NCBI RefSeq assembly: GCF_003697345.1
Contig: NZ_RFLY01000019.1
Span: 1-56,360, forward strand
Source: Solilutibacter pythonis
GTDB lineage: Bacteria > Pseudomonadota > Gammaproteobacteria > Xanthomonadales > Xanthomonadaceae
Direction of reading: 5' to 3'
Length of the DNA stretch: 56,360 bases
Below the pieces are notes generated by a model. It saw nothing but the letters and a program-made list of their open reading frames with translations. It was not told the origin of the DNA and ran no database searches. A program made the position numbers and the translations under genes. Of this stretch, positions 2,625-8,904 are shown in pieces; the stretch's first letter is position 1, and every line of letters starts with the position of its first letter.

Positions 2625-3173
2625 TTAATAGGTTTTTGTCCAGGCTAGTAACATGTCATAGTGGGATATTATTTTGTCTGGGCATTCAATGGGGTCTTCT
2701 ATTATGTTTGTGGGGACGCGAGCTTCAATATAAATATTGATGGTGCGGTCGTTGATCTCTAGATAGATCCACGCATGGTGCTTCATGTGAGTGGCCCAGT
2801 ATTCATCAACACTTTCGCGTGGCACGTTATGCAGGATTTCATGCCCCGGGAAGACCGTCTCCAGGTCTATCTCCGTTTCGCGTTCGATGCCATCCAATGC
2901 CGTCCATTTGATGTCGACAGGCGAAGGGAATCCGCGAGTCTCGAATTCTTCCGTACTGCCAAATCCCGCATTCCAGTGCTCCTTCCAGTCAGGTCTGTGT
3001 GGCTCCCCGGAAGGCCCATTTAGCTCTCTGGTTAATGCAAATTGTGTTCGATCAAAAATGATGCTGCATCTGAGTGTGTTGTGGCATCGTGCGTCGAATG
3101 AATAACTATCGAACCGGAGCGGCCACGGCTCTTTCGGTTCTTTTCGTCTGAAAAGGTTATCGATGATCTTCAT
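2625..3173 (-). CDS. Putative cognate immunity protein of the DUF2235 effector (copy 1)
   Basis: This 182-residue soluble protein has no signal peptide or membrane segment. I do not recognise its family. It starts MKIIDNLFRRKEPKEPWPLR and belongs to a set of four tandem paralogues (others at 3362, 4097 and 4837). It carries N-half type A (DARCHNTL), a conserved centre (DIKWTALDGIERETEIDLE) and a C-half almost the same as that of the copy at 4837. A conserved AGGAAG precedes the ATG. It ends 14 nt before the intact DUF2235 effector, the usual place for an immunity gene in Xanthomonadales effector pairs. The role is inferred from position only. The lack of a signal peptide is unusual for a partner of a periplasm-acting lipase. 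Confidence 0.7.
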   Translation of the reverse strand: MKIIDNLFRRKEPKEPWPLRFDSYSFDARCHNTLRCSIIFDRTQFALTRELNGPSGEPHRPDWKEHWNAGFGSTEEFETRGFPSPVDIKWTALDGIERETEIDLETVFPGHEILHNVPRESVDEYWATHMKHHAWIYLEINDRTINIYIEARVPTNIIEDPIECPDKIISHYDMLLAWTKTY

Positions 3174-3200
3174 GGTCTGGCTTCCTGGGTGGGGGTGTTT

Positions 3201-3350
3201 TCACAGGGATAGCTGAGGGGCTTTGAACTTGGATAGCCGATCGGAGGCTTGGTCGAAGCTGCGCAAATGTTCAGGTGTCGCCTCGTAGTGCGAGACATCG
3301 TCCATGGGTAAGCCATCCTGGCCCAGCATGATTGAGACTTTTTTAGTCAT
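3201..3350 (-). pseudogene. Gutted DUF2235 effector remnant, 49 codons
   Basis: The frame starts with ATG at 3350, preceded by an AGGGAG Shine-Dalgarno-like site. It encodes the effector N-terminus through SKFKAPQ, then LSL and TGA. Residues 5-46 match the intact effector starting at 2610 almost exactly, while the rest of the effector is missing. The closing codons resemble the end of the effector at 5407 (PSL-stop), so this looks like an internal deletion joining N-terminus to C-terminus. It is still translatable, with start, ribosome site and stop intact. It lies between immunity copies 1 and 2. Confidence 0.85.
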
Positions 3351-3361
3351 TGTTTCGCTCC

Positions 3362-3907
3362 CTAAAACGTTTTGGTCCAGGCCAGTAAAAGGTCGTTAAG
3401 TATTTCATGACTTTCCGGTTCGTCTGGTGCATTTCTCAGGTTTTTCGTGCGCACCATCGACTTCATATGGAAGTTGATAGTTCGGTCGTTGACTTCTAAG
3501 AAAATTTCGGCATGATGCCCCTTGCCAAAGAATCCTCCCATAGCCCACCACGGCTCCAAATCCGCCTGCTTGGCGTTATGCAGGATTTCATGCCCCGGGA
3601 AGACCGTCTCCAGGTCTATCTCCGTTTCGCGTTCGATGCCATCCAATGCCGTCCATTTGATGTCGACAGGCGAAGGGAATCCGTGAGTCTCGAATGCTTC
3701 CGTACTGCCAAATGAAGCACTCCAATTCTTCGGAGGACGGGGTTCTCCAGAAGGTCTGTCCAAGTATATGGAGTGTTGGTAGCGGTCAAAAATGACGCTG
3801 CATTTGAGCGTGTTGCAGCAATGCACGCCGAATGAATAACTATCGAACCGGAGCGGCCACGGCTCTTTCGGTTCTTTTCGCCTGAAAAGGTTATCGATGA
3901 TCTTCAT
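3362..3907 (-). CDS. Putative immunity protein paralogue (copy 2)
   Basis: This 181-residue member of the tandem family opens with the same MKIIDNLFRRKEP. It carries N-half type B (GVHCCNTLKC, with a shorter variable loop) and the invariant centre through VFPGHEI. Its C-half is unlike the other copies, with a Trp/Gly/His-rich insert (WWAMGGFFGKGHH) and a different tail ending LLLAWTKTF. Its start overlaps the stop of the frameshifted effector remnant upstream (ATGA, 3904-3907), so the two could be translationally coupled. It is probably an orphan immunity gene protecting against a non-self effector variant; that role is inferred from context. Confidence 0.65.
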   Translation of the reverse strand: MKIIDNLFRRKEPKEPWPLRFDSYSFGVHCCNTLKCSVIFDRYQHSIYLDRPSGEPRPPKNWSASFGSTEAFETHGFPSPVDIKWTALDGIERETEIDLETVFPGHEILHNAKQADLEPWWAMGGFFGKGHHAEIFLEVNDRTINFHMKSMVRTKNLRNAPDEPESHEILNDLLLAWTKTF

Positions 3908-4083
3908 GGTCTGGCTTCCTGAGTGGGGGTGTTTTCACAGGGATAGCTGAGGGGTTTGAACTTGGATAGCTGATCGGAGGCTTGGTCGAAGCTACGTAGA
4001 TGTTCAGGTGTTGCCTCGTAGTGCGAGACATCGTCCATGGGTAAGCCATCCTGGCCCAAAGGGATCAAAATTTTCTTTGGCAT
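3904..4083 (-). pseudogene. Gutted, frameshifted DUF2235 effector remnant
   Basis: The chosen start is ATG at 4083, 8 nt after AAGGAG; another ATG at 4089 sits too close to it. The frame encodes MPKKILIPLGQDGLPMDD, a divergent first few residues, and then the standard effector N-terminus to SKFK. One C is missing compared with the sister remnants near 3956. The frame therefore misses the usual stop, reads on through the leader sequence as PLSYPCENTPTQEARP and stops by overlapping the ATG of immunity copy 2. This creates a four-base ATGA junction absent from the other units. Confidence 0.8.
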
Positions 4084-4096
4084 TACCATGGCTCCT

Positions 4097-4645
4097 TTAA
4101 TACGTATTCGACCATGCAAGCTTCATGTCGGCGCGTACGACAATGGCTTTATGATCATTGCTCGGATCTTTTAAGCGATTGGTTGCTACGAGTGCCTTGA
4201 TATAAATATTGATTGTGTGATTATTGACTTCGAGGAAAATCCAGGCATGGTGTCGTTCATTTGCGGCCCTGTACTCATCAATCTCTTCCCTGGGAACATC
4301 ATGAATGATTTCATGCCCCGGAAATACCGTCTCCAGGTCTATCTTCGTTTCGCGTTCGATGCCATCCAATGCCGTCCATTTGATGTCGACAGTCGAAGGG
4401 AATCCGTGAGTCTCGAATTCTTCCGTACTGCCAAATCCCGCATTCCAGTGCTCCTTCCAGTCAGGTCTGTGTGGTTCCCCAGAAGGCCCATTTAGCTCTC
4501 TGGTTAATGCGAACTGTGTTCGATCAAAAATGATGCTGCATTTGAGTGTGTTGTGGCATCGTGCGTCGAATGAATAACTATCGAACCGGAGCGGCCACGG
4601 CTCTTTCGGTTCTTTTCGCCTGAAAAGGTTGTCGATGATCTTCAT
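4097..4645 (-). CDS. Putative immunity protein paralogue (copy 3)
   Basis: This 182-residue family member has N-half type A, nearly identical to copy 1 through FDRTQFALTRELNGPSG. The centre is the same apart from a few changes (STVDIKW, ETKIDLE). Its C-half is distinct (DVPREEIDEYRAANERHHAW, then VATNRLKDPSNDHKAIVV). It ends 13 nt before the frameshifted effector remnant. No signal peptide or transmembrane helix is visible. Together with copies 1, 2 and 4 it shows N- and C-halves combined independently around a conserved middle. Function is inferred as immunity. Confidence 0.65.
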   Translation of the reverse strand: MKIIDNLFRRKEPKEPWPLRFDSYSFDARCHNTLKCSIIFDRTQFALTRELNGPSGEPHRPDWKEHWNAGFGSTEEFETHGFPSTVDIKWTALDGIERETKIDLETVFPGHEIIHDVPREEIDEYRAANERHHAWIFLEVNNHTINIYIKALVATNRLKDPSNDHKAIVVRADMKLAWSNTY

Positions 4646-4672
4646 GGTCTGGCTTCCTAGGTGGGGGTGTTT

Positions 4673-4831
4673 TCACAGGGATGGCTGAGGGGCCTTGAAC
4701 TTGGATAGCTGATCGGAGGCTTGGTCGAAGCTACGTAGATGTTCAGGCGTTGCCTCGTAGTGCGAGACATCGTCCATGGGTAAGCCATCCTGGCCCAGCA
4801 TGAGGGAAACTTTCTTACGGTGCTCGGTCAT
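4673..4831 (-). pseudogene. Gutted DUF2235 effector remnant, 52 codons
   Basis: This starts with ATG at 4831, eight bases after GGGGAG, exactly as in the intact effector. It encodes MTEHRKKVSLMLGQDGLP and the following residues to SKFKAPQ, then PSL-TGA. The last three codons and the sequence after the stop are the same as the end of the effector gene at 5407. An effector with its whole body deleted between codon ~49 and the final three codons explains this. Immunity copy 4 ends five bases upstream. Confidence 0.85.
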
Positions 4832-4836
4832 GTGGT

Positions 4837-5379
4837 TCACTCCCCTTGGTAGGTTCTTGTCCAGGCCAGCAACATGTCACGGTGAGATATTATTTTGACC
4901 GGGCATCCAATGGGGTCTTCTATTATGTTTGTGGGGACGCGAGCTTTTATGTAGATATTGATGGTGCGGTCATTGATTTCTAAGTAAATTCGTGCATGAT
5001 GCTTCATGTGAGTGGCCCAGTATTCATCAACACTTTCGCGTGGCACGTTATGCAGGATTTCATGCCCCGGGAAGACCGTCTCCAGGTCTATCTCCGTTTC
5101 GCGTTCGATGCCATCCAATGCCGTCCATTTGATGTCGACAGGCGAAGGGAATCCGCGAGTCTCGAATGCTTCCGTGCTGCCAAATGAAGCACTCCAATTC
5201 TTCGGAGGACGGGGTTCTCCAGAAGGTCTGTCCAAGTATATGGAGTGTTGGTAGCGGTCAAAAATGACGCTGCATTTGAGCGTGTTGCAGCAATGCACGC
5301 CGAATGAATAACTATCGAACCGGAGCGGCCACGGCTCTTTCGGTTCTTTTCGCCTGAAAAGGTTATCGATGATCTTCAT
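4837..5379 (-). CDS. Putative immunity protein paralogue (copy 4), mosaic
   Basis: This 180-residue copy is a clear mosaic. Its N-half is type B, matching copy 2 through RPPKNWSASFGSTEAFET. From the conserved centre onward it matches copy 1 (HNVPRESVDEYWATHMKHH, then ARVPTNIIEDPI), with a slightly longer tail, TYQGE. It is the first immunity gene transcribed after the effector at 5407-7392 and starts 27 nt after that gene's stop. The family is unrecognised. The role as immunity is inferred from repeated pairing with effector 5' ends. Confidence 0.65.
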   Translation of the reverse strand: MKIIDNLFRRKEPKEPWPLRFDSYSFGVHCCNTLKCSVIFDRYQHSIYLDRPSGEPRPPKNWSASFGSTEAFETRGFPSPVDIKWTALDGIERETEIDLETVFPGHEILHNVPRESVDEYWATHMKHHARIYLEINDRTINIYIKARVPTNIIEDPIGCPVKIISHRDMLLAWTRTYQGE

Positions 5380-5406
5380 GGTCTGGCTTCCTGAGTGGGG
5401 GTGTTT

Positions 5407-7392
5407 TCACAGAGACGGCCGGTCTGGCGCTGTCCCCGCACGGATCGATGTTTGCCGTTCGCCACGGATGTTTGCGGTTGCTGCTCGTTTCCCTCGCGGC
5501 CAGCATAACCGGCGTGGTCTGCGGGTGTGGACGTCGTATTTGCCGGTGGCGTTCGGGTCGAGCGCGAGGGCGGTGTTGGCCGGGTCGAGGCCGGTCCGGG
5601 CGCGGGTGGTATTCACCGCCAGATGGACGGCGGCCAGTGTTTCGGCATGGGGAGCCACGCCATGGCTGGCATAGGTATTGGCGAGGTGGGCGAGGTCGCG
5701 TTGTTCCTGGGTCGGGGTTTGCCAGACGGGTAGGGCGGCCATCGTCCGGGCGTGCTGGGCCAGTTGAGGTTGCAGGGCGGCGCGGGTGGCCGCGAGTTCG
5801 GCGGCGATAGGGCCAGTGGCTACTTCGTGACCGTGCCGCCACAGGCCGTCGTCGCCACGCTGGTAGGGGCGGGCGTTGGAGGCTTGTAGGTGGTCGGGGT
5901 CGCGGGCGGTGTGGATGGCGGCCGGGATGGAGACGGTCTCGATGTTCGCCCAGCCATTGAGCCGGTGGGCCACATCGTAGCGGGCGGCAAGGGCGGCGGG
6001 GCCGTGGGCGATATTGGCCTGGATGACGTCGGCGGCCTGGCGGTCGAGTTGGGCGGCGCGTTCGGGGGAGGCCACTTCCGGCTGATAGTGATAGCCGCCA
6101 TTGGGCCGCGCATCCGTGGCGCGATTGCGCTGCCATTGCTGGGTATCAGGGTCGTGCAGCCACGGGGCGGGGGTAAGGCTGGGGCGATCCTGGTCGTTGG
6201 CGTCCAGGCGGTAGGGATTACGCGGGGGCGGCAGGCGGGCAAGACCGATTTCCACGGACTGGTGGGTGGCCTTGTAATCCAACTCTCGACGGGTGTCGAA
6301 ATCGGCGGCGAACGCTTGCGGGGCGGCCTGGCCGTCGGCGTCGAGGTCGGCTTGCAGGGGGCTGACCCACTCGCGGCGGTTGAACGTCCATTGCCGGCCG
6401 AGGGCGTCGGCTTGGGTGGCGACCTCGCGGGCGTCGAGGCGCCGCATGGCTTCTTCGGACAACACATAGCCGGCGATACCGCCCGCGATTCCCCCGGCGA
6501 CCGCGCCATATACGCCCCGCCGTCCCCCCAGTTCGGCGCCGAGTTTGCCCACGGTATAAGCGGCGACCCAGGCGTTGGCATTATTGACGGCGTAATCGCG
6601 CAATTCGTGCTTCGCGCCGAGCAGATTGTCCTGAGCCAGAAGGGTATCGACACGCTGGCCGGTGTGCATGGCGTCGGTAATGCTGGCGATGGCGCCGACG
6701 GCGGCCAGTCCCTTGATCGCTGGATGGCCGTGCAGGTTGGGTGTGCGATTGACGTTGCTCAAAATGCCAATCGGTTCACCCAGTCCTTTGGCGACGACGA
6801 GTTGATCGTGCAGAGCAAGGTCGTTGCCGATACGAGTGATGTGGACGGCTTCGGAAAACAGCGCTCGATTGGGGACGAGATATTGCTCCGCACCGCCAGC
6901 CCGGGTCACGAGGCCATTCAATTCGGATGTGGGGGCGATTGAACTGATGAAGACCTCCGTCGGCCCCTTGGGGGTGATGCGATAGAGGTCGTAGACTTGC
7001 GCCTCGCTGGCAATTGGCAGGCCAAAGCGATCGTTGAGCCTGTGGCCCTGGGCCAGGGTGGTTTCGAACTCGGATTGCTTGGAGAAATAAGGGGAGTATG
7101 GGGAAACTTTCTCGCCTACGGGGACGATCTTGGTCAGGGGCTCGTCGATGATCTCCATACGGGGAAGTTCCCGGCCGGACATGAGTTGGCCGATAGCACG
7201 ATCATTAATTTCTCTCATGGATGCATTTGGGTCTGCCTCGATAAGCTTTTTTTGATAAATTCTTCCCTCTGCTGTTAGTAAATAACTCTCAACCTCTTGG
7301 GTGCTTACTCCAAGCGTCTTGAAGGTTTTGGCTTCATCAATATCAATATTTCGTCTCTGTCTAACATCGTCTGGAGTCAAGGAGTTATTCAT
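5407..7392 (-). CDS. Second modular effector: different N-terminal domain, shared C-terminal half, altered tail
   Basis: This 661-residue protein is modular. Residues 1-229 are unrelated to the DUF2235 effector. They include SPYSPYFSKQ, RFGLPIASEAQVYDLYRI and IAPTSELNGLVTRAGGAEQY. The last has a faint resemblance to the IAP...GGG.QY pattern of TNT-type NAD glycohydrolase toxins, a weak pattern match only. Residues ~230-622 are nearly identical to the effector at the window start, including the Gly/Ala-rich hydrophobic stretch. After KYDVH the shared sequence ends and an Arg-rich tail (RRPRRLCWPRGKR to PDRPSL) follows, so the native C-terminus has been replaced. The start overlaps the 113-residue upstream gene by 8 bp. 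If the missing tail is the secretion signal, this effector may be undeliverable. Confidence 0.75.
   Translation of the reverse strand: MNNSLTPDDVRQRRNIDIDEAKTFKTLGVSTQEVESYLLTAEGRIYQKKLIEADPNASMREINDRAIGQLMSGRELPRMEIIDEPLTKIVPVGEKVSPYSPYFSKQSEFETTLAQGHRLNDRFGLPIASEAQVYDLYRITPKGPTEVFISSIAPTSELNGLVTRAGGAEQYLVPNRALFSEAVHITRIGNDLALHDQLVVAKGLGEPIGILSNVNRTPNLHGHPAIKGLAAVGAIASITDAMHTGQRVDTLLAQDNLLGAKHELRDYAVNNANAWVAAYTVGKLGAELGGRRGVYGAVAGGIAGGIAGYVLSEEAMRRLDAREVATQADALGRQWTFNRREWVSPLQADLDADGQAAPQAFAADFDTRRELDYKATHQSVEIGLARLPPPRNPYRLDANDQDRPSLTPAPWLHDPDTQQWQRNRATDARPNGGYHYQPEVASPERAAQLDRQAADVIQANIAHGPAALAARYDVAHRLNGWANIETVSIPAAIHTARDPDHLQASNARPYQRGDDGLWRHGHEVATGPIAAELAATRAALQPQLAQHARTMAALPVWQTPTQEQRDLAHLANTYASHGVAPHAETLAAVHLAVNTTRARTGLDPANTALALDPNATGKYDVHTRRPRRLCWPRGKRAATANIRGERQTSIRAGTAPDRPSL
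5527..6702 (-). repeat. Direct repeat copy B of effector C-terminal half
   Basis: This is the partner of 115-1290, same orientation, 5412 bp apart, with no indel noticed over ~1.18 kb. It ends precisely after the codons for YDVH, where the two genes stop being alike. It could serve as a recombination substrate for swapping toxin domains or deleting the intervening immunity array. Confidence 0.9.
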
Positions 7393-7726
7393 TATTAAAT
7401 CTCCTTCTCATTTCCTCCAGTTGTTCAATGTTTTTCTTTTCCTTGTCGGTTAGCCCGCCCCTTAATTCTATTCTGAATTCTGTATATGCAGATCCGACAC
7501 TTGGGTTGCTGTAGGGAATAAAAGCGCCGTCAGAAAAACTGTAGGCTCCGGGGACATCTTGTCTTTCTATCGGTAATGACACCCTTCCTGCTTTGGCGTC
7601 TTTAATCAACGGGGATAGGCTTTGCAATAATTCTTGAATATCTTTTATGCCTGGATATTGCCTTAATACCCATTCCAGGTGCTCGGCGGCAGCCTTAAGC
7701 CTTTCTGGGTTGATGGTCTTTGTCAT
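7385..7726 (-). CDS. Small partner protein of the second effector (possible Tsi6-like immunity)
   Basis: This 113-residue protein starts at 7726 in an ATGA overlap with the chimeric relic upstream. It ends overlapping the effector start (7385-7392), so it is probably co-translated with the effector. It has an Ala/Leu-rich helical start (ERLKAAAEHLEWVLRQYPG), a middle KAGRVSLPIERQDVPG and a charged helical C-terminus. The helical N-terminus with QYPG recalls Tsi6-type immunity proteins, but this is a resemblance by eye only. Its place directly before a toxin gene makes immunity or chaperone function likely. It has no signal peptide. Confidence 0.6.
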   Translation of the reverse strand: MTKTINPERLKAAAEHLEWVLRQYPGIKDIQELLQSLSPLIKDAKAGRVSLPIERQDVPGAYSFSDGAFIPYSNPSVGSAYTEFRIELRGGLTDKEKKNIEQLEEMRRRFNNE

Positions 7727-8043
7727 GACGTTGCTCTCTGCTGATTGGTAAATTGTTGTCGGTTATTTCTACAGGCTTGGCGAGGTATGGCCTGAATAAT
7801 CAGATGCGAGTTGCCGCACTTGCCCGGCAGGCAGGGAGCGCTCCATCTTGGGGAAGGCCCGAGCAACTTGCTGTCGGGCATGAACTGGGAGTGGCTGAGC
7901 TTGACACTGCTACGAAGGGTATTGAAGCAGCGCACCCCGAAAGAGAGTGACTCAAAACGCAACGGCCACGGTGTGGGGATGGGCGTGAGCTTGGCCCGTT
8001 CTTCCTCGGATAGGTCGGATAGATAGACGAAACGCTTTTTCAT
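7723..8043 (-). pseudogene. Chimeric relic: immunity N-terminus fused to an out-of-frame effector fragment
   Basis: The 106-codon frame begins MKKRFVYLSDLSEEERAKL and then PWPLRFESLSFGVRCFNTL, clearly homologous to the N-half of the tandem immunity family. After about residue 62 it stops resembling an immunity protein. The DNA from about 7780 to 7856 instead matches effector interior sequence at about 1524-1600, read here in another frame. The relic ends by overlapping the start of the 113-residue gene. It is a recombination scar; the first half could still be translated and couple expression of the next gene. Confidence 0.75.
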
Positions 8044-8086
8044 GCGGGTCTCCCGGTGTTTGCCGCTTGCCGTTCGCCGCTGATGT

Positions 8087-8230
8087 TTACTGTCGCTTCC
8101 CGCTTCCCGCTTCCCGCTTCCCGCTTCCCGCTTCCCGCTTCCCGCTCCCCGCTCCCCGCTCCCCGCTCCCCGCTCCCCGCTCCCCGCTCGGCCAGCATAA
8201 CCGCTCTGGCTTGCGACCGTGGACGTCGTA
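8087..8230 (-). pseudogene. Truncated effector tail relic ending in heptad-encoded repeats
   Basis: Reading from 8230, the frame gives YDVHGRKPERLCWPSG and then 7-residue repeats of types GERGAGS and GKREAGS, stopping at TAA (8087-8089). A stop lies two codons upstream of YDVH, so no complete gene remains. The YDVH..RLCWP junction is the same as in the tail of the second effector near 5440-5540, showing two copies truncated at the identical place. Confidence 0.65.
8094..8184. repeat. Heptanucleotide tandem repeat, 13 units
   Basis: Seven copies of CGCTTCC (8094-8142) are followed directly by six copies of CGCTCCC (8143-8184), then a broken unit. The repeat is not a multiple of three, so any change in unit number not divisible by three shifts the frame of the overlapping relic. 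It sits between the truncated effector tail and the immunity-like relic, upstream of the 113-residue gene. Confidence 0.95.
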
Positions 8231-8904
8231 TATGCGCTAGTATCAGTCGTTATGCGTGCTGCACGAAGCGTCTCCCGCTATCGGCAAGCACGCGTTGACG
8301 GGTGGCCGCCCGTCGCACATCCACGCCACGCCGCAAGCCTTGAACTCCGCGAAGAGTACCGCCGTAGCGCAATCGTTCGGTATTCCTTTTTGTTTCCATG
8401 GCGCGGCGCTTTTTCGTCGATGCGCGCGAATAGCCGGTCCGTGCCACAGGCCGCCAGGTCGGCCCGCGCTGCGGTCCAGGTAGGCGATCTCTTGTTTGCG
8501 TTTGTAGCCGTTTTGGGTGGCCAGTGGCCCGTTTTCGCAGGTGAGTTGTCAGGGGAACGGGCATCCGGGCCAAGTGCGTTGGGCTGTCCCTGCTTGCCCC
8601 GAACACTTAAGTGTGGGCTGTTGTTGGTCATGGCTTTGAAGCGACCGGTCTATAGCCATCGCTGGGGCTGCTGCTAGGTTGCCTGCAAAGGCGGAAACTC
8701 ATGGGGAATCAAGCACCAGTGTGCTTTGGCCCGCGCATTCAGGGGGGCGTTGAACATCGGGCGCAAGTCGCGCTTGCGTTGCCGCGCTTGCGGGGCCATC
8801 ACGGCCAGGTAAGGGGGCGGCGGCCCATTTTTTGTCGGAATCGACAGTGGCATAAGAGGGCTTTATCCCGGCGCGATGTATTGGCCGGAAACCAATGTCA
8901 TGCT
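8231..8904. other. Gene-poor segment, possible relics only
   Basis: I see no convincing gene in these ~670 bp. Reading frames exist on both strands, but they are Arg/Pro/Trp-rich and match nothing I recognise. A short minus-strand frame near 8640-8800 (LRPMFNAPLNARAKAHW) looks like a fragment of something larger. A small inverted repeat AAGCACCAGTGTGCTT lies near 8713. The segment separates the toxin cluster from the ordinary chromosomal genes. Confidence 0.5.

Follow-up and report, generated by a model that had tools for sequence, protein, structure and literature searches.

The stretch analysed here, referred to as the window, comprises positions 1-56,360 of contig C10 (NZ_RFLY01000019.1) of the Solilutibacter pythonis genome, an assembly of 2.93 Mb in 74 contigs, and carries an array of putative immunity genes beside a Tle1-like (DUF2235) phospholipase effector gene. 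All genes of the array lie on the minus strand, on which they follow each other as a 113-aa open reading frame (ORF), an effector-like gene with a different N-terminus, immunity copy 4, a stub of an effector gene, copy 3, a second stub, copy 2, a third stub, copy 1 and the Tle1-like effector, which is incomplete at its 3′ end because the window begins at the contig end. Four immunity-like ORFs are located upstream of this one effector, and their number, tandem order and start-to-start distances of 734, 738 and 734 bp, as given in a preliminary description made from the DNA alone, were confirmed from the ORFs.

The three stubs correspond to the 5′ end of the effector read from position 2619 downward: 160 of 167, 123 of 135 and 126 of 137 nucleotides were identical for the stubs at 4673-4840, 3904-4089 and 3201-3350, respectively, and the local alignment scores were 306, 217 and 230, compared with 39, 32 and 31 for the top-scoring of 100 shuffles. 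The preliminary description had derived them from the effector-like gene at 5407, whose N-terminus is different, and this derivation had to be abandoned. Its picture of three stubs of about 46-49 codons, each with its own start, held for the start codons, which are present in all three (the ribosome sites were assessed by eye only), and failed for the lengths, which are 49, 55 (52 from ATG) and 61 codons. When the genome was searched with the stub core, seven copies were found, including the effector itself and two copies cut by contig ends; every copy was located directly after an immunity gene, and thus no stub frame without an immunity neighbour was found in that search.

The ending of the stubs, which had been read as the final codons and stop of the effector, is formed by the last 36-40 bp of the leader that precedes the immunity genes. 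The 141-bp leader upstream of the first immunity gene gave nine matches in the genome. Three of them are long, namely C10 itself after the 5407 effector-like gene (141 bp), contig C5 after an effector tail and before the first immunity gene (140 bp, 98%), and contig C20 between a VirD4-like gene and an immunity gene (103 bp, 97%); four are short leader tails of 36-40 bp, found inside arrays only (three of them on C10, the fourth on C5), and two are weaker partial matches (C24 and C10:8067-8108). Since leader tails stand in the arrays and the leader also follows a VirD4-like gene or an effector tail, the shared ending belongs to the immunity leader and not to the effector. Moreover, it is not common to all three stubs, because the stub at 3904-4089 misses the shared stop and its frame continues to overlap the start of the next immunity gene. 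All four complete stubs of this type, the three of C10 and one from C5, have the same junction near effector codon 53. On C5 and C20, the stubs that lie at the contig ends break off shortly before this point, and one base before the junction is absent in one window stub and in one C5 stub. A single junction in four complete stubs fits one illegitimate joining followed by copying better than separate deletions.

The immunity genes themselves are mosaic. Seven copies were aligned (four from C10, two from C5 and one from C20), with block types assigned by eye. The seven copies hardly differ at alignment codons 1-25 and about 80-100, and the variable codons fall into three N types (a, b and c; about codons 26-65) and four C types (1-4; codon 119 to the end), which are combined as a1, b2, a3, b1, c4, c4 and c1. 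Silent divergence (pS) was 0.58 and 0.66 in the variable blocks versus 0.14 in codons 1-25 and 0.16 in codons 66-118. Among 111 informative sites, 2646 of 6105 site pairs were incompatible, and a custom-written statistic resembling PHI was 0.216 versus a shuffle mean of 0.433, with none of 2000 shuffles as low. Left of the break, copy 4 agrees with copy 2 at 43 of 43 sites; right of it, copy 4 agrees with the C20 copy at 112 of 113, and five of the seven recombination triplets gave 0 of 10,000 shuffles. Block N-a is 67% identical to Xanthomonas nasturtii proteins versus 54% to the N-b and N-c blocks of its own genome; N-b and N-c are nearest each other (68%), as are C-1 and C-4 (66-69%), and the blocks nearer to genes of other strains or species than to their counterparts in this genome are N-a and, by score, C-2, not N-b, N-c, C-1, C-4 or C-3. 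Because the copies are mosaic and N-a is closer to another genus, plain duplication is insufficient to explain them. We saw no positive selection on the immunity gene: the ratios of amino-acid-changing to silent divergence (pN/pS) were 0.00-0.38 in the four blocks.

Table 1. Features of the immunity array and its surroundings in the window.
Feature	Position	Strand	Basis
Tle1-like (DUF2235) effector, last array gene; 3′ end cut by contig start	1..2619	minus	PF09994, E 3.9e-14
Immunity-like copy 1 (blocks N-a, C-1), 182 aa	2625..3173	minus	ORF; immunity profile match; block typing
Last 36 bp of immunity leader, joined to stub near effector codon 53	3174..3209	minus	Leader search
Equivalent leader tail	3908..3943	minus	Leader search
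Equivalent leader tail, 40 bp	4646..4685	minus	Leader search
Effector 5′ stub, 49 codons	3201..3350	minus	ORF; alignment to effector 5′ end
Immunity-like copy 2 (blocks N-b, C-2)	3362..3907	minus	ORF; immunity profile match; block typing
Effector 5′ stub, 61 codons, one base missing before junction	3904..4089	minus	ORF; alignment
Immunity-like copy 3 (blocks N-a, C-3)	4097..4645	minus	ORF; immunity profile match; block typing
Effector 5′ stub, 55 codons from GTG (52 from ATG)	4673..4840	minus	ORF; alignment
Immunity-like copy 4, first in array (blocks N-b, C-1: mosaic)	4837..5379	minus	ORF; immunity profile match; block typing; recombination test
Immunity leader	5380..5520	minus	Leader search of genome
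Neighbouring effector-like gene, different N-terminus, shared C-terminal module	5407..7392	minus	ORF; genome comparison
113-aa ORF overlapping start of the 5407 gene	7385..7726	minus	ORF list
Eroded C24-type unit	7723..8043	minus	ORF; genome comparison

A further array of the same genome, on contig C24, contains two stubs of 72 codons each, a Tle1-like frame of 1091 codons that runs off the contig start (PF09994, E 1.1e-18) and three immunity genes whose identity to window copy 1 is 42-44%. Its junction lies at codon 65-66 in both stubs and differs from the codon-53 junction of C10; the C24 stubs, like one window stub, overlap the start of the next immunity gene. On contig C44, an immunity-gene fragment (L036 7433-7516) is situated upstream of an intact lipoprotein-type copy, and both C44 and contig C33 terminate just within the effector 5′ region.

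Comparable loci were found in relatives. In a survey of named genomes, covering the best 80 of 98 confirmed loci (some from one record), the Tle1 catalytic domain was present within 600 bp after the immunity gene in 76 of the 80, tandem immunity genes or fragments occurred in 17, and effector 5′ remnants were detected in the gaps of 13 of these 17, versus a single remnant match in the 62 control regions (the 350 bp preceding immunity genes that have no tandem partner). One immunity copy is broken or partial in L077, L088, L095 and L120. Breaks were scored separately in 24 hand-picked tandem loci, many of them also among the 80; 23 could be scored (C5 has no intact effector), and the 15 with remnants had breaks near codons 3, 6, 12, 28, 30, 46, 46, 46, 52, 53, 66, 70, 71, 78 and 126, two of the codon-46 breaks being those of Xanthomonas albilineans and its relative GPE 39, possibly one event, and the breaks of L054 and L101 being approximate owing to gapped alignments. 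The spread from codon 3 to codon 126 indicates that there is no precise deletion site. A fixed break just before the DGTG motif, suggested by C10, C24 and a genome of the same genus (G009), was dropped as a candidate on the same grounds. G009 has the order immunity gene, 50-codon stub, immunity gene and effector; in one genome (L147) the effector frames of three tandem units measure 539, 650 and 539 codons, and in L148 and L149 effectors cut to 377 and 369 codons are followed by a further unit. Relatives hold, side by side, full pairs, effectors shortened to about 370 codons and remnants whose length is about 126, 50-70 or just a few codons, and the same architecture is found in a 3.5-Mb contig (L091) and in other genera. 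The comparison with related genomes proposed by the preliminary description gave the full pairs it had looked for, together with intermediates, and its repeated pairs with lost toxin bodies do recur; the separate, precise deletions it had envisaged are not supported, given the one junction in the window and the scattered breaks elsewhere.

Two further observations were made on the surveyed loci. In two Variovorax loci (L118 6496-7170 and L120 5704-6471) the stub frame continues into the next immunity gene as one long fused frame. A record titled Methylobacterium brachiatum (Alphaproteobacteria; L075 5974-6471) contains an immunity homologue with no Tle1 directly after it, which could represent either transfer or contamination.

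Between stubs and intact effectors, pN/pS was 0.23 summed over 13 pairs (three without silent change), with single values of 0.06-0.86 where defined, and across the seven stub copies of C10, C5 and C20, two of them with a missing base, it was 0.14. Pairs of intact effectors gave a median of 0.20 and a summed value of 0.22 (50 pairs kept at at least 60% identity in both regions and pS of 0.05-0.7, for a 42-codon region set by the DGTG motif that is not exactly the stub stretch). A first estimate of 0.37 for intact pairs (146 pairs) was discarded because the ungapped comparison had misaligned many of them. Since the stub-intact value equals the intact-intact value, it is not evidence for stub function, and selection on the stub peptide, at first read from the low pN/pS, was dropped on this ground. 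On the simplest reading of these divergences, stub and effector would both still have been intact when they diverged, with truncation coming later; this would neither need nor exclude a function of the stubs, and they are probably leftover effector 5′ ends without a role as products.

Combining these results, we consider it probable, with real room for doubt, that the locus is an immunity array beside one Tle1-like effector that was made by one illegitimate joining of units followed by recombination and copying, and that it likely serves as an immunity repertoire. One unit of leader, immunity gene and effector would have been joined illegitimately to another, such that effector codon 53 or thereabouts came to abut the last 36-40 bp of the leader; this joining, of which the junction is observed and the place in the order of events is proposed, would have removed the toxin body and kept the immunity gene and the leader end. 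Homologous recombination between the repeated units, and with diverged copies from other loci or strains, could then have changed the number of units and reassorted the two variable blocks inside the immunity gene, the mosaic being observed and the source of its blocks conjectured. The function would likely be a set of immunity variants jointly covering several Tle1 toxins, and the protection against relatives that the preliminary description had expected from such a bank is hypothetical.

Several observations weigh against this account. Effector remnants were lacking in four of the 17 tandem loci and in eight of the 23 hand-picked ones, and three of the 13 remnants (L122, L129 and L131) span just the first 3-12 codons. 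Copy 3 gave no recombination signal with copies 1 and 2 (5104 of 10,000 shuffles), one C5 triplet was weak (405 of 10,000), and the 0.86 among the stub pN/pS values is that of the X. albilineans stub. The proposed immunity proteins matched no described family: six of them (two window copies, one from C24, one from C44 and two from relatives) had no Pfam match at E 1, DUF3304 included, three had no NCBIfam model at E 1, and a comparison of an immunity protein with solved structures gave only chance-level rows (best E 0.055). Many of the relatives' immunity proteins start with a lipoprotein-like signal, and the array copies of C10, C5, C20 and C24, judged by eye, do not, which weakens the idea of a bank; a cytosolic immunity protein would protect the producer more readily than it would block a periplasmic attack. 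Finally, the XVIPCD domain (PF20410) had 13 matches in the genome, none of them at the array places or on contig C8, and was not found in the C24 effector, whose frame is open at the contig end, while the window effector's own end is missing.

The alternative that survives best is sequential displacement, in which imported immunity-effector pairs would displace the resident effector body and leave the immunity gene and the effector 5′ end behind, a model published for Vibrio cholerae (PMC5361080, from the part of the paper available). Because import is allowed in the favoured account as well, the two overlap and their chances are not exclusive; we regard displacement as possible, on the less probable side. 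Displacement would account for immunity variants that are strongly divergent between units, as seen in the pS of the variable blocks against the constant segments, for an N-a block nearer Xanthomonas and for stubs that look diverged under constraint. However, independent insertions should not strike the same base pair, yet the four visible junctions agree, and the pairing of N-b with N-c and of C-1 with C-4 equally fits divergence within the genome.

It is also conceivable, albeit rather unlikely, that the array is a recombination-driven generator of immunity variants, in which the constant segments (immunity codons 1-25 and about 80-100, and the stub) would act as homology arms around the two swapped blocks, and the stubs would persist as the 3′ arm shared with intact loci. 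We give little credence to the history told by the preliminary description, in which several duplications of the complete pair were followed by a separate deletion of each effector body, with immunity retained against relatives. The full tandem pairs and part-length effectors of relatives and the different breaks between loci would agree with it, but it is hard to reconcile with one junction common to the three window stubs and the complete C5 stub, and with mosaic immunity copies of which one block is nearer another genus than the other N types of its own genome. Still less credence is given to the stubs as expressed peptides with a role as decoy, chaperone or translational-coupling leader for the next immunity gene: the start codons, the low pN/pS and the overlaps with the next immunity start in C24 and one window stub would suit such a role, whereas breaks from codon 3 to 126 without a common end, the base missing from one window and one C5 stub, and tandem loci without any remnant (4 of 17) speak against it, and import before truncation would explain a pN/pS that intact genes equal. 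An assembly artefact from mis-joined repeats, to which 74 contigs and the ends of C5, C20 and C24 inside such repeats might point, is very unlikely, because the C10 units differ at many sites, the array does not sit at the very end of the contig, and other genera as well as the 3.5-Mb contig show the same architecture.

Regarding the delivery route, TssC/VipB (PF05943) had no match in the genome, with a positive Escherichia coli control, and VirB4 was found (PF03135, 3.3e-53), as was the VirD4-like protein encoded on C20 adjoining an immunity gene. The immunity family occurred in 118 of 395 genomes; VirB4 was present in all 20 immunity-bearing genomes chosen from these 118 versus six of 20 genomes without the family, and TssC, searched in the carriers only, in two of the same 20, counts that are not independent because the genomes are related. 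This genome-level association makes delivery by a bacteria-killing type IV system more likely than delivery by a type VI system.

Upstream of the array, the last 40 or so codons of the effector-like gene at 5407 depart from the shared C-terminal module and enter the immunity leader, and no Pfam or NCBIfam family was found above cut-off for its product. The 113-aa ORF likewise had no family above its cut-off in Pfam or NCBIfam and may, by its position alone, be a candidate immunity gene of the 5407 effector. The eroded unit begins with 64 codons from the start of a C24-type immunity gene (87.5% aa identity), which run into a piece of the Tle1 catalytic domain (30 codons, 80% aa identity). An intergenic repeat has two copies beside the effector loci, at 5452-5543 and 8067-8235, from which the search pattern was built, so that their number does not serve as a test; part of it is also found upstream of the C24 array, and a 7-bp repeat run follows the second copy.

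The architecture is real and recurrent; the earlier anatomy was largely right, the shared ending was misassigned, and the history given for it was too simple. The usual explanation of immunity arrays is that whole modules were displaced; here remnants of the toxin gene mark the join of each unit, so that the sequence allows the type of recombination and its order to be read. The architecture recurs in several genera with different joins, and with its two-block mosaic the immunity protein lends itself to a direct test of which of its parts sets toxin specificity. The statement that such loci have no standard description for DUF2235 was partly right: for V. cholerae, arrays that contain a partial effector gene have been published, and we found no account of tandem Tle1 immunity genes separated by 5′ effector stubs, a weak negative given that subscription papers were poorly covered. 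PMC8263058 had no relevant content, and the terms looked for were lacking in PMC10933484, which deals with X-Tfi.

Among known systems, the type VI secretion system (T6SS) immunity arrays of V. cholerae (Kirchberger 2017; PMC5361080) are similar in that, according to the available part of that account, one effector is accompanied by several immunity genes, a partial effector gene is left, homologous recombination takes part and the loci are mosaic. They are described there as lying 3′ of the pair, with different immunity types and the effector 3′ end kept, whereas in our case the array lies 5′ of the effector, the immunity genes are of one family, the stubs are 5′ ends, blocks are shuffled inside the immunity gene and TssC is lacking. 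Homogeneous polyimmunity loci (Zhang 2012; PMC3482391) share the tandem paralogous immunity genes in one orientation; according to the accessible text, toxin genes or cassettes never interrupt them, and here a toxin-gene stub occupies three of three window gaps. In Pseudomonas aeruginosa, tli1a and tli1b are likewise two tandem immunity genes upstream of tle1, one of them a proposed pseudogene (PMC13133936); they encode DUF3304 lipoproteins and belong to a T6SS, unlike the present array with neither a DUF3304 match nor TssC, and a stub is not mentioned in the available part of the report. The available sections of other reports describe Tli7a and Tli7b without a signal peptide (PMC13340143), a DUF3304 immunity protein paired with a DUF2235 effector in the Stenotrophomonas T6SS (PMC13055248), and orphan and clustered immunity genes in agrobacteria (PMC8546570). 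The effectors (X-Tfe) and immunity proteins (X-Tfi) of the bacteria-killing type IV secretion system X-T4SS (Sgro 2019; PMC6536674, as far as the available part extends) come from the same bacterial order, DUF2235 is among the X-Tfe domains and cytosolic X-Tfi have been proposed, but none of the Tle1 effectors examined in this analysis gave an XVIPCD match. The locus is best described as an array working like those of V. cholerae, in which 5′ effector stubs and a two-block mosaic of the immunity gene are the new features.

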